The notes beneath the pieces were generated by a model. The model made no database searches, had not been told where the DNA came from, and saw only the letters and a list, made by a program, of their open reading frames with translations. The translations under genes were made by a program, and so were the position numbers. 24,246 nucleotides of DNA from a virus: the IMG/VR virus record IMGVR_UViG_3300045020_000058, positions 1-24,246 of that record; one strand, written 5' to 3'. Each line of letters opens with the position of its first letter. Position 1 is the first letter of the stretch. This document shows positions 3,089 through 24,246 of this stretch, one piece after another.

Positions 3089-4027
3089 ATGTCGCAAGAC
3101 CTTACCACGCAGACGCGGCCCGGCCTCGTTGCGAAATTCGCCGACAAGTATTCGATCGATGCGAACAAGCTCATGGACACGCTCAAGTCGACTGCTTTCA
3201 AGCAGCAGGGCGACAAGGAAGTGTCCAATGAGCAGATGGCCGCGTTGCTGATCGTCGCCGACCAGTACGGCCTCAACCCGTTCACGAAGGAAATCTACGC
3301 CTTCCCGGACAAGGGCGGGATCGTGCCAGTGGTTGGCGTCGACGGCTGGGCGCGCATCGTCAACGAGCACCCCCAGTGCGACGGTTTCGAGTTCACCTAC
3401 GCTGGGGAAACGGTCGAATTCAGCAGCAAGCAGGTGCCGGTGTGGATGGAGGTTCGCATCTACCGTAAGGACCGCGCGCGGCCGGTGATCGTACGCGAGT
3501 ACTTCGACGAAGTCGTGCGCCGCAACATACAGCCGTGGCAGTCCCACCCGAATCGCATGCTGCGTCACAAGACGTTCGTCCAGGGCGCGCGCCTCGCGTT
3601 CGGCTTTGCCGGTGTGTTCGACGAGGACGAAGGCCAACGCATCGTCGAACGCGATATGGGCACGGCTCAGGAAATGCCACCGGTCGCGCAGCCGCAGTCA
3701 CGTAGCGCGCGTACTGCGGCACCCGCTATTCAGCAGGCGGATAGCGATGGCGTGATCGATATGCCCGTGCAACGCCAGGCCGAACCGGTGCAACAGGCGC
3801 AGCAGCAGACGCAACCGAAGTCACGCGCCGCACGCGCCCAGCAGGAACAGTTCGAAGATCCGCCGGCAACGCCCGTCAGCGACAGCGTTATGCGCGTGCT
3901 GCAGACGAAGATGGAGATGAACGGCATCAATGAATCGGACCTGAAGAAGAAGTTCGGTTTCGATCTCGATGGCGTGACGACTGCGAACTACAACGCCATC
4001 GTCGAATTCATCGAGAACCCGGTATGA
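3089..4027 (+). CDS. bet: Bet/RecT-type single-strand annealing recombinase, 312 aa
   Basis: Bet-type proteins bind single-stranded DNA and anneal complementary strands in phage recombination, working with a 5'-3' exonuclease. The core at residues 1-190 has the family pattern: an N-terminal helical part, then the conserved block beginning DQYGLNPFTKEIYAFP (near residue 58), VPVVGVDGWARIV, and the second block with WQSHPNRMLRHK and GFAGVFDEDE. At 312 residues it is longer than lambda Bet (about 261). The extra length is a Gln/Pro-rich linker and a helical C-terminal segment (265-312) that probably contacts partners such as SSB. GGAA precedes the ATG. The exonuclease gene overlaps its stop, the usual pairing. 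No Gam gene is seen nearby. Confidence 0.93.
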   Translation: MSQDLTTQTRPGLVAKFADKYSIDANKLMDTLKSTAFKQQGDKEVSNEQMAALLIVADQYGLNPFTKEIYAFPDKGGIVPVVGVDGWARIVNEHPQCDGFEFTYAGETVEFSSKQVPVWMEVRIYRKDRARPVIVREYFDEVVRRNIQPWQSHPNRMLRHKTFVQGARLAFGFAGVFDEDEGQRIVERDMGTAQEMPPVAQPQSRSARTAAPAIQQADSDGVIDMPVQRQAEPVQQAQQQTQPKSRAARAQQEQFEDPPATPVSDSVMRVLQTKMEMNGINESDLKKKFGFDLDGVTTANYNAIVEFIENPV

Positions 4028-7968: not shown

Positions 7969-8488
7969 GGAAGTCGCCAAAAAAGCGCTCGCTGATCTGG
8001 ATTCGGCATACATCGACGTAACTATTCATGCGCAAGCCGCTTTCGCTCTCGTGCGTTACGTCAGGGATCTGGAAATGCAGCTAAGGGCGCTGCAAAAGCA
8101 AATCGCCGCAGCAGCGCAATCAGCGACGGCGGAAGTGCTGGACAAGCCCGCAAAGGTCGGATGCACTCGATTCGGCATTGGCGTGAAATGGAGCACCGTG
8201 ATCGGTGCGGCGCAACGCCATTACGAATACGAGGTGACGCCAGAGAAAGAGGCGGCGCGCATCGCAAATGCTAAGACCGTGATTGAAAGTATCCAGCGAG
8301 GCGATTATTCGACGCCGCCGGAACGCGCATTGACGGCGCAACTGAACGCGGCCTATGCCGCACTGGATGCCGTGACGGACTGGGCAAAGCAGGAAGACGA
8401 AAATAGCGAAACAGGATCTGGAACACGACTGCTTGCGCTGCTGTTGAGGCATGGCGTGCATCCTCGAGATAACGAGGACAAGCCATGA
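7958..8488 (+). CDS. Phage accessory protein, 176 aa
   Basis: The GTG at 7958 starts inside the previous gene; AAGGAG lies at a normal distance. Residues 1-58 form a helical, partly coiled-coil segment (DLEMQLRALQKQIAAAA). Residues 70-110 carry TRFGIGVKWSTVIGAAQR followed by YEYEVTPEKEAAR, a motif I recall from hypothetical proteins of phage accessory regions. The end is polar. No catalytic residues are apparent. It may be functionally linked to the 7312 protein, with which it is translationally coupled. Confidence 0.7.
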   Translation: MNDKEVAKKALADLDSAYIDVTIHAQAAFALVRYVRDLEMQLRALQKQIAAAAQSATAEVLDKPAKVGCTRFGIGVKWSTVIGAAQRHYEYEVTPEKEAARIANAKTVIESIQRGDYSTPPERALTAQLNAAYAALDAVTDWAKQEDENSETGSGTRLLALLLRHGVHPRDNEDKP

Positions 8489-9021
8489 GTGCCATCATCA
8501 GCCATTGCGGCACATATCGCTATCGCCTAGAGCGCGGGCCGTTCGACTCGGTGATGCAGCTTGAGTTGGCCGAAGATGGCGTCTACGAGTTTCGCGGCAA
8601 GATCATCGCTTTTTTCGGCGTCAACCCCAGTACTGCCGATGCCAGCCTGAACGACCATACAGTAACCAAATGGACCGGGTTCTGCCAGCGTTTGGGTGCT
8701 CAGCGCTTCATCGTCGGGAATGTTTCGGCCTATCGCGCGACGGACGTTACCGAACTCGCCAATGCAATCGTCTCGCCTGAGCAGTGGCGCGAGAACCTGG
8801 CGCATATTGAGCGGATAGTCGCTGAGGCCGACATCCTCGTCCCGTGCTGGGGAAATCGCTCGAAGGCTCCCCGCCATATGCGTAACGACTTCGACACCGT
8901 ACTCGCCCTTCTTCGATCAAGCGGCAAACCCGTGAAAACGTTCGGCCTCGCGGCGACAGGCGACCCTAAGCACCTGCTGATGCTCGGCTATAACACGACG
9001 CTTGTGGAGTTGAAACGATGA
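8485..9021 (+). CDS. DUF1643-family protein, 178 aa
   Basis: The ATG overlaps the previous stop by ATGA. The sequence has the DUF1643 pattern: an early GTYRYRLER, the core IIAFFGVNPSTADAS with a following ND-x-T (about residues 40-60), WTGFCQRLG, FIVGNVSAYRATD, then LVPCWGN and a C-terminal TGDPKHLLML. The family is found in bacteria and phages and its biochemical role is not established. The conserved NPSTAD and CWGN segments may form a pocket, which is speculative. It sits in the distal early operon among accessory genes, so host takeover or nucleotide/DNA metabolism are options. Confidence 0.85.
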   Translation: MSAIISHCGTYRYRLERGPFDSVMQLELAEDGVYEFRGKIIAFFGVNPSTADASLNDHTVTKWTGFCQRLGAQRFIVGNVSAYRATDVTELANAIVSPEQWRENLAHIERIVAEADILVPCWGNRSKAPRHMRNDFDTVLALLRSSGKPVKTFGLAATGDPKHLLMLGYNTTLVELKR

Positions 9022-13870: not shown

Positions 13871-16075
13871 TCAGGTATTAAAGGAGATGGAAATATTTTG
13901 CGAATCGGTCGCTGTGCCAGCCTGATTCACGAGTGCAAACGAGAATGCGCTGGCCGTCTGACTCACGATTGTATAGCTGATCGAATCGTTTCCGGTGCGG
14001 TCCGGACTGATATGCGGCACGTAAGCGGCGCTCGGGAATGCCTGGTTAAACGTGACCGTATAAGCTCCGGTTCCTGTGCGCGCCAGTGTGCAGCCTTCCA
14101 GCACGATTGCGGAAAGCGTCGCGCCGTTGAACAATGCCTGCGCCTGTGCGCGGCCTGAGAAGAATGGCTGAGGCAGCGACGTTGTTTCGTTCCATGTGTT
14201 GCCGCCATTGTCGATGAAGCGAACCGCTGACGAACCGCCGACCCAGAATGGTCGCGCGGCGGACGGCACATAGCTGCCGGCCGAGAAGAACTGGTTGCCT
14301 TCGAGCAGCACCGTCACCGGGCCGCCGCCGCTCGATGTGACCGAAATATTGTTGTTCGTGTAGAACGAGCTCTGCGCCCGGATGAACAGACACCCGCGAA
14401 TCAGGACGGTGAGCGGCGAAGAAGTCGGATTGTCGATCGAGATATCGGCGATGCCTGCGTTCTCTTCGAAGTAGCAGTTATCGAAGACAATCGGCCCCGC
14501 ATTGCCATACGCGCTGACTTCGGCGACAACAGCGCCCGTTGCATTGTTTGCCTGCGTACCACAACTCTCGAACGTGCAATCACGAAACGAATTGTTCGAA
14601 CCAACCGCGATGCCATAGACGCCGGCTAGCGTGTTGTTCTGGAACGTGCACGCATCAAAGTTGATCGCATTGCATGCGCCCTGCGCGTTCGTCGTGAGCT
14701 GCACGCCATACTGGTTATATCCGAAGATGCACTTTGAGATCTTGCCCGTATAGCAGCTTTGCAGGTTCAGGCCGATGGTCATGTATTGGACATAAATATC
14801 CTCCAGCTTGAACCATGCCTTGTTCTGCATGTAAATGCCGCTGTTGATCGCCGGGTTATAGGCGTTATTCTGCAGCGTGAACTTCGAGAGGGTATCGAGC
14901 CCGAGCAGACCTTGTCCGGCGCCGGCCGTGCTACCACCAGTCATGGTGATGGCATAGCCAGTGCCCGAGTAACCGAGGATCGTATTGGCCTGACTTTCAC
15001 CGTAGACCGAAATGCGCTGCGACGGCGCGCCGGGGATCGGAAATCCCGATGCACTGTAGTTGACTGTGATGCCGGTCGCGAACAGATACTGGCCCACCGG
15101 CATCTTGTAGGCGTTCAGGCCATTACTCCAGATCAACTGGAGCGGCACAGAATCGTCCGTAGTGTTGTTCGCTGCGGCAGCGAAGTCCTTGGCATTCAAT
15201 GATCGCGAGAGGCGCGCCTGAAGCGATTCCGCCACGGCCCCAGTGATCGGCGCGGTGTAGGAAATCTTCGTGCTCTGGATTCCAGCGCCAGAGGCCACGG
15301 ATGCATCAGTGACCGTACCGACACCAGGTGTCCCAATCGTCGCCGTGGTGCCGCCCTTGACATAGACTTCCTGCACGCCCACCGGGATCGGCGCATTGAA
15401 CGTCAACGTGTAATTGTTCAGGCTGAACGTATCTTCGCCCTGCGCGGCCGAATCGAAATTCACCCACAGATTGGACTTCGCACCATAAAAGCCGACCAGC
15501 GTCAGGCTCGTGCTGAAGCCGGGAGCGAACTGATTAGTCCCTGTAGCTGCCATCGACTCGGCACCGACCGTCTGCGACGTGCTAACAGTCCACGAGGTAC
15601 CGGAGCCGGCCGTGATCGTCGTGCCGGTTGTCACGCCAGAGCCGAAGAGCGTCTGACCAATAGCAATCGCGCCTGTCACACCACTAACAGTCAGCGTTGT
15701 CCCGGTGATCGAGCCAGTAAAGGTCGGACCCGCCAGAAATGGCCCTTCGTCGGTCATCTGGCCGGTTGCTTCAGCGCCTTCGGCGGTGACGTTCTCCGCG
15801 ACCCAGATCTGGTTGCCATGCGAATCGGACAGCGTGATCGTGTAGGTCACACCGGTTTGCAGGAAAAGCTGGCTTGAGATGCCCGAAGAATTCGAAATTT
15901 CGCCGCGCGAGTTTAGCGGAATAGGGTTGGGCAGAGGCGTCGCGCCCATCGAGTCCTGAAAAGCCGGATAGTTGACGCCCCCTACCTGAGTCAGGAGACT
16001 GCCTCCCACGTTCATCTGGCCGGCATTATTCAGGAACTGAAGGATCAGCGGCGGCGCGAGCGCAACAGTGCTCAT
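13871..16075 (-). CDS. Tailspike with right-handed beta-helix, 734 aa
   Basis: The N-terminal ~95 residues are a particle-binding domain (NPIPLNSRGEI, then LFLQTGVTYTITLSDSHGN and IWVAENV). Residues 110-180 form a Gly/Thr-rich repeat domain (TGTTLTVSGVTGAIAIGQTL). Residues 187-241 form a module shared with the 22233-23036 protein. From about 295 (AKDFAAAANNTTDDSVPLQ) a pectate-lyase-like beta-helix runs to about 610, with many Asn/Cys-rich turns, and a smaller beta domain ends the protein. Such spikes bind and often cut host surface polysaccharide. The start overlaps the previous stop as TAATG. Enzyme activity is not decided by sequence. Confidence 0.88.
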   Translation of the reverse strand: MSTVALAPPLILQFLNNAGQMNVGGSLLTQVGGVNYPAFQDSMGATPLPNPIPLNSRGEISNSSGISSQLFLQTGVTYTITLSDSHGNQIWVAENVTAEGAEATGQMTDEGPFLAGPTFTGSITGTTLTVSGVTGAIAIGQTLFGSGVTTGTTITAGSGTSWTVSTSQTVGAESMAATGTNQFAPGFSTSLTLVGFYGAKSNLWVNFDSAAQGEDTFSLNNYTLTFNAPIPVGVQEVYVKGGTTATIGTPGVGTVTDASVASGAGIQSTKISYTAPITGAVAESLQARLSRSLNAKDFAAAANNTTDDSVPLQLIWSNGLNAYKMPVGQYLFATGITVNYSASGFPIPGAPSQRISVYGESQANTILGYSGTGYAITMTGGSTAGAGQGLLGLDTLSKFTLQNNAYNPAINSGIYMQNKAWFKLEDIYVQYMTIGLNLQSCYTGKISKCIFGYNQYGVQLTTNAQGACNAINFDACTFQNNTLAGVYGIAVGSNNSFRDCTFESCGTQANNATGAVVAEVSAYGNAGPIVFDNCYFEENAGIADISIDNPTSSPLTVLIRGCLFIRAQSSFYTNNNISVTSSGGGPVTVLLEGNQFFSAGSYVPSAARPFWVGGSSAVRFIDNGGNTWNETTSLPQPFFSGRAQAQALFNGATLSAIVLEGCTLARTGTGAYTVTFNQAFPSAAYVPHISPDRTGNDSISYTIVSQTASAFSFALVNQAGTATDSQNISISFNT
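15353..15517 (-). repeat. Protein module duplicated in the fibre at 22347-22511
   Basis: Residues 187-241 of the tailspike align without gaps with residues 176-230 of the protein at 22233-23036. I count 32 identical residues of 55, including TLTFNAPIPVG. The DNA is also related, for example around ATCGGCGC near the end of the module. Confidence 0.8.
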
Positions 16076-18705
16076 TATGGATTCCCCTTAGCGTTCTTCG
16101 TTAACTGGTTCAGCGGCACGCTTTTCAGGCCAGCGCCCAATTCGAGCGATTTGCCGACTTCTTTTGCGTTAGCGCGGCGCGCGAGGGCTTCGCGCGTCCA
16201 TGTGCCGACCGGCACGCCATGCGCTGCAACATTAGCCGCGCCTTCGGCTGCGGATTTGGCGGCATTGGCTGCTGAAGCGACAAACGTATTGCTGTTGTTC
16301 ACATAACTGCCGCGCGGCTGTTCCTGCGTGTAGCGCGCCACATTGCCCAGCTTCTCGACGGTTTGGGAAGCACCAGGACCAAGTACGATGCGCGTCTTGT
16401 CACCGAGGTTCTGGATGGCCTTGTTGAGCCCTGCCTGACTGATATTGCCGGTGCCGGTGCGCAGATCCACGCCGGCCTGCTGCCGGATGTGATCCATCAA
16501 TGCAGATGCCACCAGCTCCTGATTGACCGGGTCGTTGGACAGGTTCTGCATCATGTTCTGCACGTTCGCCGTCTTGCCCCCGGCGATGTACTTGCGCGCG
16601 AAGTCATCGGCTAGCGGAGAGGGCTCACCAACGGGCGTGATGTCGTTCACAGCGGCCTTGTATGCCGGGTCCGCATCCATCGCCTGGAAACGGGCGCGCG
16701 CGCTTGCCTGAGCCGTTTTGTAGGCCGAGAAGGCATCCGCGCCGGCGGCGGACGGATCGAGCTGCGAGTTGACGATGCTATCGCGCAGGGCGCCAATATC
16801 ATGGCGCACCGAACCATCCGTGGCGCTGCGCATCGCGCCCGAAAGCGTCTTGTCGATGTCCATCAGGTCGCCGACATTCATCGGGCGCACATTCGAGCCG
16901 TTGACCTCAAAGCCGGCCGGCAGGGACACCTGATTGGCGGCCGCGTCGCGAAAGATCTGTTGCACATTGGCCGGCAGCGCATTGAAGCGCGTCGGACCGA
17001 TCTGCGAGGCGAAATCCCGCATCTGCGGCGCCGCATTCACGATAGCAGGCGCGCCGTCCGCGCCGCGTGCGCGCGCATATTGCTCGGAAATCTGCTGCGT
17101 GATCGGCGCGTCCATCTGCTTGTAGGCGTCGACAAGCGCCTGCCCGGTCGGCGCACCGGATGGCACGTTGACATTGGGCGAAACCTGATCACGCAGCGCG
17201 GTAAGGTTGTCCGAGATCTGCCCGTTCTGGGCATTGAAGCGTGCGGCCAGTTCGGGATTTTTGCCGCGGGCATTCATTTCCTGCGAAAGCAGATTCACAT
17301 CGCCGCTTGCCTGGCCGGCGGTGAGTTCGACCGGAACCGGCAATGAACCGGCTTCAATGTGGCGGCCGGCCGCGACCGGATTAAGAGTGCCGGCCTGTTC
17401 CGCAGAGGCAATCTTCTGGACCAAGGAATCGGGAACGCCTTCGGCGGCAGCTTGCTGCGCGAACGAAGCACCTGCTGCACCTACGCTACCGCGCCCGACA
17501 TTGGCCGCAGCCGTTTGCGTCTGGGTAGCGGCAAGATTGGCTGCTGCCTGCTCTTCTGGCGTCCGCAGACCCGTCGCCACACTTACGGCACCACCAAAAT
17601 CGCTGGCGGTCTCGCCGGCCGCACGCGCCGCATTTCCAATGGCTCCGGCCGCGCCGCGCGCTGCACCCGCGACCGCCCCCGGAATCTGCGAAACGAGGTG
17701 CGCCGCGCCGGGAACCACAGCTTCGACTGCCTGCCCAGCGAGCGGGATACCGGCCTTGATCGCGCCGGATGAGGCCAGTGCCAGCGAGCCAGCCATGTTG
17801 CCAACGTCCTGCGCCGGCAGACCGGTTGCGCCAGCGACCGCGTTCACGCCCCTGTTGACGATGCCGCCAACGGCCTGTTGCGCGCGCTGCGTTATCTCGT
17901 TCTGATATTCGGGCGTGTTCGTCACGCCAAAGGCATTCCCGACAGGATGCACTGCGCCGCCGAACTGCGCGGCCTGCGCGCTAGCTTCCTCAGGCGTCAT
18001 GCCCGAGGCGCGCGCAAGTGCATACGTCCCTTGCTGTGCCACCGCGCCGGGAGCGCTGAGAACAGTGTCAGCCAGGCCAGCAACGGAACGGCCAAGGCCA
18101 GAGAGGAAGCCGCCGGCCGGCGCCTGCTGGCCGGGCTGTTGCGGCGGTGTCACAGCCGGCGTTTGAGTTGCGCCTTTTGCGCCCTGCTGAAGCGTCGAGA
18201 ACAGATCAGACATCGGCCCGGCGGGCGCCGCAGGTTGCGCACCAGCATTCGACTGCCCGGGCATCGTTGGTTCGGGCGGCACGCCATTCATTGCCTTGTT
18301 GATGTAGGCGGTAGGGTCAGCGGTCTTGAAGCCGCCATAGGCCTTGAGGGCGCCCTGGTAGGTGCCTCCGTTCTGCGTCTTGAGCTGCTGGATGTAGTAG
18401 TCCGCTGCCGCGCGCGACTGCTGCGGGTCGAATGGATCAAACTTCACGCCCTGGTTGCGCAGTGCGGCGACGGTAGATGGCAGGAACTGATATGGTCCCA
18501 TCGCGCCGGTCTTCGGATTCACAGCGGTCGGGCTGCCTGCGTCTTCGATGCCGTGCAGGTTATCCAGTAGTTGCGGCGGCGTCCCATAGCTCTTCGTCGG
18601 ATCGAAACCGCTGCTCGGAGCGGACGCGGCAGACTGCGGCGCAGCGACGGCGGCCGGCGGCGCGTTCGGGTTTGCGCTCTGAATCGTCGAGAGCAGATCG
18701 TCCAT
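16075..18705 (-). CDS. Large ejection protein with lytic transglycosylase domain, 876 aa
   Basis: It corresponds in place to P22 gp16, the last of three ejection proteins that enter the host with the DNA. Residues 37-128 carry a transglycosylase-like domain: HGIEDAG (E54 as the general acid), GAMGPYQFLPST, and ALKAYGGF. The domain would open peptidoglycan for DNA entry. The rest is long, Ala/Gly-rich and helical, including TLSAPGAVAQQ-like and GAVAGAARGAAGAIG segments that suit membrane insertion. The start overlaps the previous stop as TAATG, and the tailspike overlaps its stop in the same way. Enzyme residues are called by motif only. Confidence 0.85.
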   Translation of the reverse strand: MDDLLSTIQSANPNAPPAAVAAPQSAASAPSSGFDPTKSYGTPPQLLDNLHGIEDAGSPTAVNPKTGAMGPYQFLPSTVAALRNQGVKFDPFDPQQSRAAADYYIQQLKTQNGGTYQGALKAYGGFKTADPTAYINKAMNGVPPEPTMPGQSNAGAQPAAPAGPMSDLFSTLQQGAKGATQTPAVTPPQQPGQQAPAGGFLSGLGRSVAGLADTVLSAPGAVAQQGTYALARASGMTPEEASAQAAQFGGAVHPVGNAFGVTNTPEYQNEITQRAQQAVGGIVNRGVNAVAGATGLPAQDVGNMAGSLALASSGAIKAGIPLAGQAVEAVVPGAAHLVSQIPGAVAGAARGAAGAIGNAARAAGETASDFGGAVSVATGLRTPEEQAAANLAATQTQTAAANVGRGSVGAAGASFAQQAAAEGVPDSLVQKIASAEQAGTLNPVAAGRHIEAGSLPVPVELTAGQASGDVNLLSQEMNARGKNPELAARFNAQNGQISDNLTALRDQVSPNVNVPSGAPTGQALVDAYKQMDAPITQQISEQYARARGADGAPAIVNAAPQMRDFASQIGPTRFNALPANVQQIFRDAAANQVSLPAGFEVNGSNVRPMNVGDLMDIDKTLSGAMRSATDGSVRHDIGALRDSIVNSQLDPSAAGADAFSAYKTAQASARARFQAMDADPAYKAAVNDITPVGEPSPLADDFARKYIAGGKTANVQNMMQNLSNDPVNQELVASALMDHIRQQAGVDLRTGTGNISQAGLNKAIQNLGDKTRIVLGPGASQTVEKLGNVARYTQEQPRGSYVNNSNTFVASAANAAKSAAEGAANVAAHGVPVGTWTREALARRANAKEVGKSLELGAGLKSVPLNQLTKNAKGNP

Positions 18706-20225
18706 TACTGGACACTCCCGGTATTCGAGAGTTGCTGGAGCGCCTGCGCCTTCTTCATCATCGCGTTATAGCCGGGCGAGTTCAGGCCGCCTAGCTGCTT
18801 GACGATAGCCTGTTGCTCCGTTGAATCGCCCGACTTGATCGCGTTGTAATACTTGAAGATGTTCGGGTCGAAATTCGCGCCCCACTGCTGGTCGAACTGA
18901 CGCTTGGCAAAGATGCCAGCGGCAGCATTTGCGGCAATCGCTCGCTCAAGACCAGGTTGGTAAGACTGCACACCGGTAGTCAGGGCGTCATTGAGTTTCG
19001 TGACTTCCTTGATGGCATCAGGCGTGTAATGCAGGGAACCATTAGCTTTGATTTGCGCATCGAGACCAGCATTCGTGTTCGGGCCCATGGACTGCGCGGC
19101 CTGCAATGCGGAGCGTTCGAGACCTTTGCCGACCAGATCATATGCAGTCGCCGCGTCCACACCGGGGCCGATATTCAGACCCAAGGCACTCGCGATGTTG
19201 CGCAGCGGCGCGCCGGCCGTTCCTGTCGCTGCGACATTATCGATATTTTGCAAGACAAGTTGATTATTGGCATGCGCGACACCCGCGTTCAAATAAGCAT
19301 CTTGTGCCGCCTGCCGCTGCGCAACAAGCGCCGGTTTCTGCTCCAGATCGCCGGGAGATGGATTGTAGACGTTCTGCGTGGGCGGGTTCGTGACACCTGT
19401 AATCTGCCCATTGCCGCCGCGATTGACCACGGCGAGGCCGCCCGATACGGGATTCGTCGTGAGTTGAGAGCGCTCACCGAGCGGAATGCCTTGCGCGATT
19501 TCAGGGCCAACCGGTCCCACTGGAGTGGCCGATAACGGGTTGATATTCGACACCTGCACGCCGCCATTGGGCCCGGTCGAAGTGATCAACTGGTTCCCTT
19601 GTTGCGCGGCCGTAGTCGCGGCCGGCTGCAAAGCCTGCACACCTTTGCGAAGAATCTGGTTGCGCTGGTCCGGCGACGCGTTGGGGGGAATCGAGTCTAC
19701 CGATTGCTTCGTGCTGTTGACGAAGGGCGCCAGATCGGGATTCTGTTGCGCGAGCGTATCAAGGCGCGACATTACGCCTGATGTGTCCGGCTCGCCAATA
19801 CCGGACGCCAGCACGCCGCTCACTGCCGCGCGCTGATCGTTCGTGAGCTTCAATGCGTCTGAATGATAGTTGTTGGCGTTATCCAGCGTCTGGATGATGC
19901 CTTGCTGCACAGCCTGCCCGGTGATCGGCAAATATTTGTTGGCGAACTTGCTCACCGCCGGATAGTTCAGCGTGCCATCAGGATTCTTGATCGGGTTTCC
20001 ATCCGGGTCTTTACCGGACGATAGCGCGCTCTGATAAAGCTGCCGCTCGTCGAGCTGCTGCTGTGCGCTTTGCGCGGTGCCGGCGCCAACCTGCAACTGC
20101 TGCTGTCCAAGCTGCAACTGCTGCTGCGCATTGGCTATGCCGAGAATGCCCGACAGACTCTGGATGGTCTGGTTGGGATTGGGCGGAGTGATCTGGTCCG
20201 CAACGGGATTTCCGAAGTCCGGCAT
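18705..20225 (-). CDS. Ejection protein (P22 gp20-like position), 506 aa
   Basis: The protein is soluble, Gln/Asn/Ala-rich and mostly helical. Residues 30-60 hold a Gln-rich repeat (AQQQLQLGQQQLQVG), coded by a 15-base repeat. The region at 330-420 resembles internal virion proteins of P22-like phages (GLERSALQAAQSMGPNTN, GSLHYTPDAIKEV). It is the second of three ejection-type genes, between a Gly-rich hydrophobic-start protein and the transglycosylase protein, as in the P22 order 7-20-16. The ATG at 20225 follows the previous stop by two bases. The assignment is by order and composition. Confidence 0.75.
   Translation of the reverse strand: MPDFGNPVADQITPPNPNQTIQSLSGILGIANAQQQLQLGQQQLQVGAGTAQSAQQQLDERQLYQSALSSGKDPDGNPIKNPDGTLNYPAVSKFANKYLPITGQAVQQGIIQTLDNANNYHSDALKLTNDQRAAVSGVLASGIGEPDTSGVMSRLDTLAQQNPDLAPFVNSTKQSVDSIPPNASPDQRNQILRKGVQALQPAATTAAQQGNQLITSTGPNGGVQVSNINPLSATPVGPVGPEIAQGIPLGERSQLTTNPVSGGLAVVNRGGNGQITGVTNPPTQNVYNPSPGDLEQKPALVAQRQAAQDAYLNAGVAHANNQLVLQNIDNVAATGTAGAPLRNIASALGLNIGPGVDAATAYDLVGKGLERSALQAAQSMGPNTNAGLDAQIKANGSLHYTPDAIKEVTKLNDALTTGVQSYQPGLERAIAANAAAGIFAKRQFDQQWGANFDPNIFKYYNAIKSGDSTEQQAIVKQLGGLNSPGYNAMMKKAQALQQLSNTGSVQ
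20091..20126. repeat. Short repeat coding for a Gln-rich segment
   Basis: CTGCAACTGCTGCTG occurs at 20091-20105 and 20112-20126, a period of 21 bases. On the minus strand it encodes a QQQLQ unit twice in the ejection protein. Slippage or internal duplication is likely. Confidence 0.7.
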
Positions 20226-20227
20226 TT

Positions 20228-21064
20228 CTAGCTCCCCGCCGCAAGCAGCCCATTCGTGCCCGGGGCAGTACCGTTGAATTCACTTCCGCTGGCAAGCCCG
20301 CTGGAAGCCGAGTTGGCGTTCAGGATGCTGCTGAGCGCGATCGAATTGCCCACGCCGCTAATGCCACCGCTCAGGGCGTTCGCGGAGCCGATCGTACCGG
20401 CCGCCTGCGACGCGCCCGCACCGGCAATCGCCTGCGCAGTGCCCGTGCCGAGTGTTGCACCCGCAGAGCCAGTGTTGCTCGCTGCGTTCTGGCCGAGACC
20501 GGCGATTGCGGAGAGGCGCCCAAAAATACCCTGCTGCTGCGATTCGAGCGAGTTGAGGTTGGTGCTGTATTGGCTCTGCGCCTGATTGAAGTAGTTGTTG
20601 TAGTACTGCTCGGCATTGCCGGTGGCATAGTTCGTCAGCGCCTGCAGCGCAGGACCGGACAACGCACCAACATTCGGCGCGATTGCATTCTGCGTCTGCT
20701 GCAGACCCTGGCTCTGCGAGAACTGATAGCCCGGCGAGCTAGTAATGCTTGATGGATTGAACGAAAACGGCCCGAGTGTCTGGTTCAGATAGCCGCTCGG
20801 CAAGCCATTCACGCCGGGCCCGGGCGTCAAGCCAAGCAAGTCAGATAACGCGCCAGTCGCATTCACGCCAGCCGTCATGAACGGTTGTTCCTGCTGCGTG
20901 ATGGTATTGAACTCGTTTTGCTGGATCTGGGCAGCTTCTTCCTGCGCTCCAGCCTGAGTATTGGCTGCGCTCGTCGCGGCGTTCGAGCTGATCAGCGAAC
21001 TGCCGACCGAGGCTGCGGCCCCGGCAATCCCAATGATGGCTCCTGCGGAAAGACCTGCGCTCAT
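20228..21064 (-). CDS. Ejection / DNA-transfer protein (P22 gp7-like position), 278 aa
   Basis: The N-terminus is a Gly/Ala-rich hydrophobic helix (SAGAIIGIAGAAASVGSS, residues 3-22), the usual start of phage DNA-transfer proteins. Next come a helical Gln/Asn-rich stretch (EEAAQIQQNEFNTI) with TTQQEQPFM-type sequence, and then the pattern LPSGYLNQTLGPFSFNP, which I recall from Burkholderia and Pseudomonas phage injection proteins. The rest is low-complexity Gly/Ala/Ser. The ATG overlaps the stop of the SET gene by ATGA. It probably lies inside the capsid and enters the host envelope during DNA entry. Confidence 0.8.
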   Translation of the reverse strand: MSAGLSAGAIIGIAGAAASVGSSLISSNAATSAANTQAGAQEEAAQIQQNEFNTITQQEQPFMTAGVNATGALSDLLGLTPGPGVNGLPSGYLNQTLGPFSFNPSSITSSPGYQFSQSQGLQQTQNAIAPNVGALSGPALQALTNYATGNAEQYYNNYFNQAQSQYSTNLNSLESQQQGIFGRLSAIAGLGQNAASNTGSAGATLGTGTAQAIAGAGASQAAGTIGSANALSGGISGVGNSIALSSILNANSASSGLASGSEFNGTAPGTNGLLAAGS

Positions 21065-21891
21065 GATGCCTCCTTGACCGGTTTGAATCCCGCGCCATTC
21101 ACGCTCATGGCCTGTCGATAATCCACGGTCAGTTCTTCGCCGCAGCGGATCACGCGTAGCGCGCGCGCATCCAGGTCGTCATTGTCGCGGAGCACAAATT
21201 CAACATTGGGACGGCATGAATGATTAATGAAGCGTGCGGCCGGCGTGCGCTTTCCATCGATCCTGACCGGCGCAAAGTCATCGGATTGATCGATCGTCTT
21301 GCGCGCAAACATGCCGAGGCCAGCGATTGCCGAATCGCGGACTTCTACCGCCTCAACCCATTCCGGGAACGGCGCCCGATCGGCTTCGTTTTCCACAAGC
21401 CGCATGACGAATCCTTCCGTCAGGCCATATTCGGTCAGGAAACGCTGATAGTCGTCGCGCGCAAGCTGCGCGAGCATCTGGACGTTCTGTGCTCCGCCGA
21501 TCAGTTCTGCGCTGGTCGACTCGGTGATTTCTTCGATGAGTTGGTCAATATCCGTGACATTCGTGACGTGATAGGTGGTCCAGACCGTTTCCTCGATCGC
21601 ATAGCCAACGCGCTTGGCGCCAGCCTTGGAGACGATCGTACAAGGCGCGGCAAGCTCGCGCATGCCATCATCGGTCGAGACAACAATGCGGCCCTTCGAG
21701 ACCGTACATAGATGCTCATGGCGGTGCACGGCGCCAGTGATCACCACGCCCGCCGGGATGGTCATCTCGCGTGCGGCCATGCCGGGAGCGAAATAATGGC
21801 GCACAGAACAATCGACCTGCGGCAGTTTCTGGATTTCGCGTTCAAGCCGCTCAACAGCCTCGCGATCGACACTTTTCGCTACGGCATTCAT
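21061..21891 (-). CDS. Cupin-SET domain fusion protein, 276 aa
   Basis: The ATG at 21891 overlaps the previous stop by ATGA, which sets the start. Residues 28-112 look like a cupin barrel: an upstream Pro/Gly turn, HRHEH (H56, H58 and E59/H60 as metal ligands), KGRI, and a late H108 in TTYHVT. Residues 180-262 look like a SET domain: SAIAGLGMFARKTID, then RFINHSCRPNV (N223, H224, S225, C226), then GEELTVDY (251-258, with Y258 at the catalytic tyrosine position). SET enzymes methylate lysine in proteins using S-adenosylmethionine. The SET-I insert is very short and no post-SET cysteines are seen. The place between tail and ejection genes suggests modification of virion or host proteins. Confidence 0.85.
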   Translation of the reverse strand: MNAVAKSVDREAVERLEREIQKLPQVDCSVRHYFAPGMAAREMTIPAGVVITGAVHRHEHLCTVSKGRIVVSTDDGMRELAAPCTIVSKAGAKRVGYAIEETVWTTYHVTNVTDIDQLIEEITESTSAELIGGAQNVQMLAQLARDDYQRFLTEYGLTEGFVMRLVENEADRAPFPEWVEAVEVRDSAIAGLGMFARKTIDQSDDFAPVRIDGKRTPAARFINHSCRPNVEFVLRDNDDLDARALRVIRCGEELTVDYRQAMSVNGAGFKPVKEAS

Positions 21892-22223
21892 TGAATCACC
21901 ACGCCGGAAACGGTGAGCGTAACGGAGCCTGCGACGCTGGCGAAAGCATGAAGCTGATAACCGGTGGGAATAACGAGGCCCGCGAGTTCTGGCGAAACGT
22001 AGGTTTCGCCCGGGGCAAGAGTGCGCGCATTGATCATGGTCAGAACTCCGAGTGCTCCGCCGGAAGTGATGCCGGCAGTAATAGTGATTGCACTCGCTGC
22101 GGTGTTGCAGAACACCGCACGTCCGATTTGCCCAGACGTGTTCGTACCCGGAGAATACACGTTCGCATCTGCCGCGCCAAGTTCCACGGTCAAAAGCAGC
22201 AAGGCGGGTGTAATTGTGGTCAT
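21888..22223 (-). CDS. Small beta-rich virion-type protein, 111 aa
   Basis: The ATG at 22223 is preceded by GAGGA. Its stop overlaps the SET start by ATGA. The protein has repeated hydrophobic strands separated by Gly/Thr/Asn turns (ALLLLTVELGAADANVY, SAITITAGITSGGALG, GSVTLTVSGVVIQ), a beta-sandwich-like composition. It has no signal peptide (the N-terminal TPALLLLTV lacks a basic start). It may be a decoration or tail accessory protein. No family is recognised. Confidence 0.65.
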   Translation of the reverse strand: MTTITPALLLLTVELGAADANVYSPGTNTSGQIGRAVFCNTAASAITITAGITSGGALGVLTMINARTLAPGETYVSPELAGLVIPTGYQLHAFASVAGSVTLTVSGVVIQ

Positions 22224-22232
22224 CGCAATTCC

Positions 22233-23036
22233 TCACGAAGGAAGGAACGCGACTGTCGGCGCGCTCGAATAAGTGATCTGGACCTGATCCAGGCGGCGCA
22301 GCGGGACCAGCCCGCCGCTGGTTGATCCGGCCACCGCGCCGCTCGCGCCTTTCACGAAGACATTCATGGTGCCAACAGGAATCGGCGCGTTGAATGTCAG
22401 CGTTGTGCCACTGAGGGTGTAGGTGTTTGCGCCCTGCTCTCCGGCATCGAATGCTACCCAGAGATCGGCCGCGCTGCCGTAGGACTGTGACAGTGTCAGA
22501 GATGTCGATACGCCATCCGTGAAATCGACGCCCGCCACGAAGCCCGGTTGGCCGCCAGAACCCTTCTCATCGGTGAAAGTCGAGATCGCGGTGGTGCTGC
22601 CGGAAGTAATGCCGGTGGCAACCGAAACGCCCTGCCGGATGATCGTTACCGCCGAAACAGTGCCGCCCGTGACCGATAGCACGCCATTCGCGAGCGCGGT
22701 ATAGGTGAAAGGCGATGCCCCGGGCGTGACAGACTGCACAGGCTGCGCGGCCGGAACAGGATCCTGAAGTGGCGTATTGGCTAGCAGCGCGCTCAGGTTC
22801 TCGATCTTGCGAAAGGCCTGCGAAATGTCTGCCGTCTGCGCGAACAGATTGTTTGCGTCGAGAGAATCGTAAGGGGATGCTGGCGTTCCGCCGCCCGATT
22901 GCCCGGTCCCGAGAACCGCCTTCGAAATGTTGTATGCCCACAGATACCAGTTGATATCCATGTACTGGGGCTTGTTTCCCGGGTTCGCAATGAGCGGTAC
23001 GCTCTGCTGAGGAATCAGGTCGGGAAGGCCGCTCAT
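22233..23036 (-). CDS. Head/tail-junction fibre-like protein, 267 aa
   Basis: The ATG at 23036 overlaps the stop of the gp10-like gene by ATGA. It has the position of P22 gene 26, the tail needle, but looks like a fibre. Residues 1-45 have NKPQYMDINWYLWAYNI, 60-90 a helical NLFAQTADISQAFRKIENL stretch seen in phage fibre N-termini, and 100-232 a beta-rich part. The 176-230 segment is closely related to a module in the tailspike. It may attach to the tail hub. The role as needle versus fibre is open. Confidence 0.7.
   Translation of the reverse strand: MSGLPDLIPQQSVPLIANPGNKPQYMDINWYLWAYNISKAVLGTGQSGGGTPASPYDSLDANNLFAQTADISQAFRKIENLSALLANTPLQDPVPAAQPVQSVTPGASPFTYTALANGVLSVTGGTVSAVTIIRQGVSVATGITSGSTTAISTFTDEKGSGGQPGFVAGVDFTDGVSTSLTLSQSYGSAADLWVAFDAGEQGANTYTLSGTTLTFNAPIPVGTMNVFVKGASGAVAGSTSGGLVPLRRLDQVQITYSSAPTVAFLPS
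22347..22511 (-). repeat. Protein module duplicated in the tailspike at 15353-15517
   Basis: Residues 176-230 of the 267-aa protein match the tailspike module (32 of 55 identical, no gaps). Both end in TLTFNAPIPVG followed by a VKG strand. The shared module may be a common attachment domain. Confidence 0.8.
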
Positions 23037-24246
23037 GCTGCGCTGAACGCCTTGAGAGTGGCCCCGACCAGATCGCGGTTCACTGGGTCGATGACCTCGA
23101 TATCCACCACATTATCCCGGCCCCACCCGAGCTTTCGCCACATCGTGCGCGTGCGGTATTGACCAATCTGACCCATCGGCGCATAGAGCGGATCGCCGAA
23201 TGTATGGCCGCCGTCGCGCGAGAGATGCAACTTGCACTGCGGGTTCGAGCCCATGCCACTCGCCGGCGCCTGTCCGACATTGAAGTCGAGCTGCAGGCTC
23301 TGCATGAAAACGCGACCGCGCTGTCCCTTATCCCACACGTGAGGCGCGCGGCGCTTGGCAAGCAGCGGCCACCCTGCGTCGGTATAGGAGTCACGCGTGA
23401 GCCAGTAAATGGCGCCGTTCTCATAGTCGCCGGTAATCCGCATCCCAGCGAAGTTCATGTAACAGTTCGAGCGCTCGCGATGAAATGTCTTGGCATAGGG
23501 ATCGTAGGACGCGCGCTTGTGCAGGAGATCCGATTGCCCGTCATATACCCACGTGACATCTGCGGTTGGAAAGGTCAGCACATAGAACTCGTGCGTGTCT
23601 TCCTGATAGGTGTAAGCGATGGCGTCGTCGGTGACCGGATAGGTCGCCACCTCTTTGCCAAACGATGGCGTCGAGACCACTGTGTCCTGGAATCCCTGCG
23701 TCAGGATGATGACATTCTCGCCGCGCTCGGACCGTCCGAACCACATCAGGCCTTCCTGCCCCTGCGTGCCGAAGCGCGAGACCGAGTGCTTTGCCTTGCA
23801 GCCCGCCTGAATGAGCGTGCCAACAATGCGCTGAAACGCGAACGTGGCGCCCACCCCACCCGGCGCGCCGCCCGCGTTGTACCAGATCTCCGTGGTCTTG
23901 TCGCCAATCAGCCAGAGCAGTTCCTTGTTCTCCATCACGGCCACAAGATTGTCGCTCGCGGCATCCTTCAATGCGAAAAAGAGCGCGCTGAAGGTCAGGC
24001 CATACTCTTCCGCATTGGAGTAGAACTCCTGCGTACCGGGCTTGTTGAAGATCCACCAGCCGTCGATATAGGCAACCGTATCGGCTCCGAGGAAGCTGGG
24101 ATCGGTGATCTGTGCTAATTTCTGCGTCGAGATGGTGTAGTAGTAACCGTAGGGGCCGTCCACGATAACCGCAGTGTTCCCCTGATTGTTGTCGCGGATG
24201 CATACCGGCCCGCTACTCGTCAGGAGCGTGCCTACCGCCTTCAGCG
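23033..24246 (-). CDS. P22 gp10-like packaged-DNA stabilisation / tail protein, 5' end off window
   Basis: The open frame continues to the right edge (the GTG at 24163 is an internal codon; 27 further codons upstream read in frame), so the start is missing. The visible 404 residues match in style the P22 gp10 family: GPYGYYYTISTQKL, AYIDGWWIFNKPGTQEFY, then LWLIGDKTTEIWYNAGG, and near the end LHLSRDGGHTFG and RTRTMWRKLGWGRDNV, typical for the tail hub that closes the portal channel. A full protein is usually about 470 residues, so about 65 are lost. It is the first late gene visible in the window. Confidence 0.9.
   Translation of the reverse strand, partial: LKAVGTLLTSSGPVCIRDNNQGNTAVIVDGPYGYYYTISTQKLAQITDPSFLGADTVAYIDGWWIFNKPGTQEFYSNAEEYGLTFSALFFALKDAASDNLVAVMENKELLWLIGDKTTEIWYNAGGAPGGVGATFAFQRIVGTLIQAGCKAKHSVSRFGTQGQEGLMWFGRSERGENVIILTQGFQDTVVSTPSFGKEVATYPVTDDAIAYTYQEDTHEFYVLTFPTADVTWVYDGQSDLLHKRASYDPYAKTFHRERSNCYMNFAGMRITGDYENGAIYWLTRDSYTDAGWPLLAKRRAPHVWDKGQRGRVFMQSLQLDFNVGQAPASGMGSNPQCKLHLSRDGGHTFGDPLYAPMGQIGQYRTRTMWRKLGWGRDNVVDIEVIDPVNRDLVGATLKAFSAA

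Follow-up and report, generated by a model that had tools for sequence, protein, structure and literature searches.

Why would a phage keep, among its virion genes, a protein that joins a cupin to a SET domain, known from eukaryotes as a protein-methylating enzyme domain, and which protein would that domain modify? The window, meaning the whole 24,246-nucleotide stretch analysed here (IMG/VR record IMGVR_UViG_3300045020_000058, positions 1 to 24,246), contains such a gene on its minus strand at 21061..21891. It starts with ATG, encodes 276 residues and was defined from the open reading frame list, a match to phrog_34170 (E=8e-59) and an AF2 model; a Pfam search of the whole 24.2-kb virus record found one SET only.

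A 2026 study reported, as a new finding, that phage proteins are methylated on lysine and arginine in infected cells and in free virions, for phages without known methyltransferases (PMC13288928). An ORF of Stenotrophomonas phage Ps15 is called 'SET domain protein' in passing (PMC9025141), and single database entries already label such proteins (A0A6J5PTS6 as SET-containing, MW202744 as methyltransferase-like). In the open-access papers searched, a collection without most subscription journals, we found no description of the cupin-SET fusion, its family or its context.

The fusion gene is coupled to its neighbours in a virion operon

All genes of the operon lie on the minus strand. Its first gene encodes the head closure Hc3 / packaged-DNA stabilisation protein (23033..24246; phrog_578, E=1e-78) and is cut by the contig end. 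It is followed by a gene for a 267-aa protein with no Pfam or PHROG family match (22233..23036), a small gene for 111 residues taken from the open reading frame list (21888..22223), the cupin-SET gene and a gene for a gp14-like DNA ejection protein of 278 residues (20228..21064; phrog_598, E=3e-25). Further downstream lie a putative gp15-like ejection protein gene, assigned by gene order (18705..20225), and a putative gp16-like ejection protein gene with an SLT transglycosylase domain (16075..18705; PF01464, E=2e-8).

A sequence-only reading had placed the fusion inside a virion operon with ATGA coupling on both sides. Both overlaps could be read in the sequence (21888-21891 and 21061-21064), and Hc3 at the operon start together with the phrog_598 ejection gene downstream bears out the placement. 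In a 40.7-kb relative, an 11-kb segment of the virion operon is 93% identical at the DNA level and the cupin-SET protein 98% identical. The two ATGA-coupled neighbours, of 278 and 111 residues, contain zero lysines, and the remaining operon proteins contain 1.9-4.0%. Elsewhere in the window, the early region carries a DUF1643 gene (8485-9021, E=9e-22) and RecT (3089-4027), and an ORF at 3-530 on the minus strand has a long C-terminal Pro-Glu dipeptide repeat that continues past the contig end.

This arrangement recurs among relatives. In all 98 readable loci, the downstream gene starts between -38 and +9 nt from the stop of the cupin or cupin-SET gene, most commonly at -4, and in 86 of the 98 its product matches one ejection-protein family by profile. 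The non-matching downstream genes nearly all share a small-residue, MS-type N-terminus; in one locus (L003), the downstream gene was read in the wrong overlapping frame. In nearly every readable locus, the gp14-like ejection gene immediately follows the cupin gene. The exception in order is Bordetella phage BPP-1 (bbp24-bbp23, L264:6483-7402), which reads GNAT-cupin-small gene-portal, with no ejection gene adjoining the cupin. There, the GNAT acetyltransferase gene precedes the SET-less cupin with a 4-nt overlap and is perhaps a second modifying enzyme paired with the cupin.

The C-terminal half is a compact SET domain

The SET domain, located by Pfam, a family profile, the AF2 model and structure matches, spans residues 174-259 (21115..21372, minus strand). 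It is preceded by a helical lead-in (DYQRFLTEYGLT..., residues 137-173, 21373..21483, minus strand), whose pattern Y..FL...GLT accompanies the SET module across copies and in either fusion order. PF00856 matched residues 206-258 with 44.7 bits against a cut-off of 22.4 (E=2e-11), and a profile of the phage SET family matched MLL/KMT2A (E 5.6e-13), with both SET halves collinear and ~34 residues between them skipped. The SET half modelled alone (AF2 pLDDT 93.1, pTM 0.86) superposes on SAH-bound MLL1 with Z 11.2 and 1.6 Å over 80 residues at 38% identity; the C-terminal part of the full-protein model (pLDDT 90.9) matches the MLL1 SET with Z 10.4.

The RFINHSCRPN and GEELTVDY motifs picked out by the sequence-only reading are both present, along with a GLG at residues 191-193. 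Across 52 representatives (<85% identity), S187, G191, G193, F195, R215, T216, N223, H224, E253 and Y258 are invariant. These include both glycines of the GxG motif in the cofactor loop (G191-L-G193, 21313..21321), the first two residues of N223-H224-S225 (21217..21225) and two residues of EELTVDY (E252-Y258, 21118..21138), all on the minus strand. Nine SET columns stay invariant once the reversed and stand-alone copies described below join the alignment. The predicted fold is that of a SET, and NHS and E..T.DY are retained in homologues, so that both conditions named beforehand as refuting the SET reading fail to refute it, although rare natural variants lack a motif residue (NQS in L110, NCY in L004). 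Compared with the 98%-identical relative, dN/dS is ~0.12 for the SET half and 0.03 for the cupin.

The domain is smaller than its bacterial counterparts. GxG and NHS lie 32 residues apart in 52 of 53 phage copies, as against 59-70 in bacterial SETs, where five shorter spacings arise from chance hits of the search pattern; hence neither SET-I nor the YxG motif (motif II) is present. In known enzymes, these two elements contribute to the lysine channel and substrate groove. The description of a minimal variant missing the post-SET cysteines thus holds, but calling its SET-I 'short' understated the reduction, as SET-I is essentially absent along with YxG. Many copies outside the window carry a GCxGG insert ahead of GEE, and some a Cys-containing tail (e.g. 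L057, L043, L080), a possible local site that the window protein does not have. Judged from motifs and models, the SET half is probably an active SAM-dependent protein methyltransferase.

The cupin half is the constant partner

Residues 1-135 (21487..21891, minus strand) belong to phrog_12032, 'short tail fiber protein' (PHROG E=6e-59; structure Z up to 12.2). In the AF2 model, residues ~26-111 adopt a double-stranded beta-helix, the best match, to a cupin structure, having Z 12.2 and 2.3 Å over 86 residues. The window protein does not reach the Pfam cut-off for Cupin_2 (PF07883; 12.1 vs 27.2 bits, E=0.17), and a sequence search for a solved structure of the family gave E=0.44 at best. The profile search proposed earlier for both domains hence succeeded for SET and fell below threshold for the cupin, whose predicted fold is nonetheless clear; as modelled, this half is recognisable as a cupin from structure only.

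The HRHEH block with a late histidine, also noted from the letters, is present in the window and in its own subclade, but it is not a family feature. Among the 52 representatives, 24 have His and 27 have Gln at position 56, H58 is His in 13 and the late H108 in 12; H60 is the sole histidine of the block that is retained (48 of 52). Canonical metal-ligand positions are replaced, the first His of HxH by A54, the Glu by H60 and the motif-2 His by R94 (Lys/Arg in the family). A role of the cupin as a metal-dependent enzyme half is not supported because its ligands are not conserved, and we rejected it on that ground.

Phages of Vibrio, Shewanella, Variovorax, Sphaerotilus and Dickeya, among others, carry SET-less relatives of this cupin, as does Bordetella phage BPP-1. 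The cupin half is a core protein widespread in podophages, and SET is an optional module. While the family is named after a tail fibre, its gene slot is as suggestive of assembly or ejection as of a fibre; the genome papers of VvAW1 and X14 gave no mass spectrometry of virions that shows the cupin.

The SET module is optional and recurs in other virion-operon settings

We collected 199 cupin ORFs, of which 113 carry SET and 86 end 3-33 residues past the cupin, counts that are not natural frequencies, as the set contains some contigs more than once and the queries were SET-biased. None of the 199 has a C-terminal extension other than SET. On the best tree of the cupin domain, which rests on few columns and leaves many forks unresolved, SET presence switches at least 7 times, and well-supported branches force at least 2 switches. 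From this tree, the module appears to have been gained or lost repeatedly. The window clade sits among SET-less cupins (99% SH-aLRT) and its SET falls within the phage SETs, a pattern consistent with transfer of the module to a different cupin.

The module also occurs in other arrangements. Reversed SET-cupin fusions are intact in L237 (5632-6426) and L310 (4695-5801); a third (L256, 4890-5667) has its SET part split by a frame change, either real or an assembly error. Settings without a cupin are few, and every one is in a virion operon. In L305 (5001-5648), the SET module has another C-terminal part and lies between the genes for an SU10 portal and a scaffold; in L303 (5001-5372), a SET of 123 aa stands by itself close to terminase and portal genes; and in L335 (4950-10037), SET forms the N-terminus of a 1695-aa protein encoded after the gene for a giant virion structural protein.

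Profile scans found at least 367 relatives in IMG/VR. The SET half matched eight of 50,697 named phage records, about six distinct phages, plasmids carried cupin-only relatives and none with SET, and NCBIfam gave zero matches even at E=10. SET-bearing prophage relatives are found in Paraburkholderia (L104, L105, L108), suggesting that the window phage may infect Burkholderiaceae. Some fusion-bearing phage contigs were binned to MAGs of distant phyla, namely Bathyarchaeota (L106), Anaerolineae (L110), Lentisphaera (L112) and Bacillota (L115); these labels are probably binning errors and not hosts.

The adjoining ejection protein is an unlikely lysine substrate

The sequence-only reading had suggested methylation of a virion protein, such as an ejected one, or of a host chromatin or ribosomal protein. 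A protein methyltransferase remains plausible, but its closest ejected neighbour fits poorly: the gp14-like protein is devoid of lysine in the window and in five other loci, two of them duplicates of a single near-identical relative, and every lysine column stays at or below 28% in the 90 SET-bearing loci compared. We therefore rejected it as a likely lysine substrate.

Among SET-bearing close relatives, no lysine is conserved in at least 80% of sequences in Hc3, the two genes upstream of the fusion, the gp14-like or the gp16-like protein. K492 of the gp15-like protein occurs in 5 of 5 sequences with SET and 1 of 7 without, but was discarded as a methylation site, since the tail of L200, a phage without SET, closely resembles theirs. 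Near-identical gp15-like tails are likewise shared by SET-bearing and SET-less phages (L043/L035 vs L197/L208), so the gp15-like protein cannot generally require methylation. No lysine in the operon proteins convincingly tracks SET presence. The gp15-like and gp16-like proteins, portal or tail proteins or the cupin itself may be the substrate instead. Methylation of histidine is reported for SETD3 (PMC6289574).

A candidate morphogenesis enzyme with two modules

Our preferred reading, to which we assign a probability of roughly 45%, is a two-module morphogenesis enzyme. The cupin would belong to the conserved assembly or tail-vertex proteins of podophages; produced in step with the gp14-like protein, it would act as a dock. 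It would hold the compact, SAM-dependent SET at the portal-tail-ejection complex, where SET would methylate at least one virion or assembly protein. The tight spacing to the ejection gene, the portal, terminase and giant-protein settings of the SET module in L305, L303 and L335 and the existence of fusions in both orders speak for a link to assembly, and the reported methylation of phage proteins (PMC13288928) is a precedent. The lack of a conserved lysine in the operon proteins named above, the shared gp15-like tails and the missing motif II and SET-I speak against the reading.

We favour an assembly-linked substrate over a host target, which we consider unlikely though the strongest of the alternatives. 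Here, the fusion would be packaged with the ejection proteins, enter the host and methylate one of its proteins, in counter-defence or takeover. Its gene adjoins the ejection genes, its SET is patchy on an otherwise constant cupin, like accessory host-interaction functions, and in L335 the SET forms the N-terminus of a giant protein of the virion operon; host protein methylation is also raised in phage-infected cells (PMC13288928). The portal-SET-scaffold order of L305, however, is an assembly context, and Paraburkholderia hosts already encode full-length SETs themselves.

As another alternative, the SET module would serve for binding or structure and have no methyltransferase activity. The missing YxG motif and SET-I, and the rare motif losses in L110 and L004, are compatible with such a pseudoenzyme, but the ten motif residues invariant in 52 representatives, and the nine columns that stay so with the reversed and stand-alone copies, are not easily explained by binding alone, and the model closely fits SAH-bound MLL1; we regard this as improbable. 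A fusion of two enzymes, the cupin being a metal-dependent hydroxylase or demethylase, for example, is highly improbable despite the cupin fold and the histidines of the window subclade, given the lost canonical ligands (A54, H60 at Glu, R94 at His, Gln at 56 in 27 of 52).

Returning to the morphogenesis enzyme, a cupin-SET fusion in virion operons suggests that phages methylate proteins during particle building or delivery. More broadly, and tentatively, tailed phages may have a compact SET class of their own, acting on virion proteins or on a host target reached by ejection, which would amount to phage-encoded protein methylation with lysine binding rebuilt without SET-I and motif II. Candidate methyltransferases of this family lie in the virion operons of hundreds of podophages from environmental data. 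Two of these phages (P26218 and PH1) have named hosts, so it becomes directly testable whether a phage methylates its own particle or its host.

Comparison with known systems

The window gene occupies a slot equivalent to that of T7 gene 13, which is flanked by tail protein gene 12 and ejection gene 14; in T7, gp14, gp15 and gp16 make up the DNA ejectosome (PMC8954989). No homology to T7 gp13 was found: gp13 matches PF11090/phrog_308 only and the window protein does not, so the slot alone is shared. Closest in design are members of phrog_34170, including Rhodoferax phage P26218 gp30 and Pseudoalteromonas phage PH1 gp49, which have the same cupin-SET architecture, motifs and slot before a DNA ejection gene at about 32-36% identity to the window protein; they are annotated as hypothetical or tail fibre, with SET unnamed. 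The same cupin family makes up phrog_12032 and phrog_24280 ('short tail fiber protein / adhesin', including BPP-1 bbp23), whose members lack SET and end 3-33 residues past the cupin. The members examined other than BPP-1 precede an ejection or internal virion gene, whereas the BPP-1 cupin follows a GNAT gene, two genes ahead of portal.

With KMT2/MLL-type lysine methyltransferases, the phage SET has GxG, RFINHSC.PN and GEELT.DY in common (core Z 11.2, 38% identity to MLL1), but it lacks ~34 residues of MLL1 comprising motif II and SET-I as well as the post-SET zinc site. PBCV-1 vSET is likewise a compact viral SET, which the phage model matches with Z 9.6 and 2.1 Å over 80 residues. Whereas the vSET of the algal virus stands alone (119 aa chain), the phage SET core is shorter (~85 residues) and resides in virion operons, making it useful for asking what the SET fold minimally needs.
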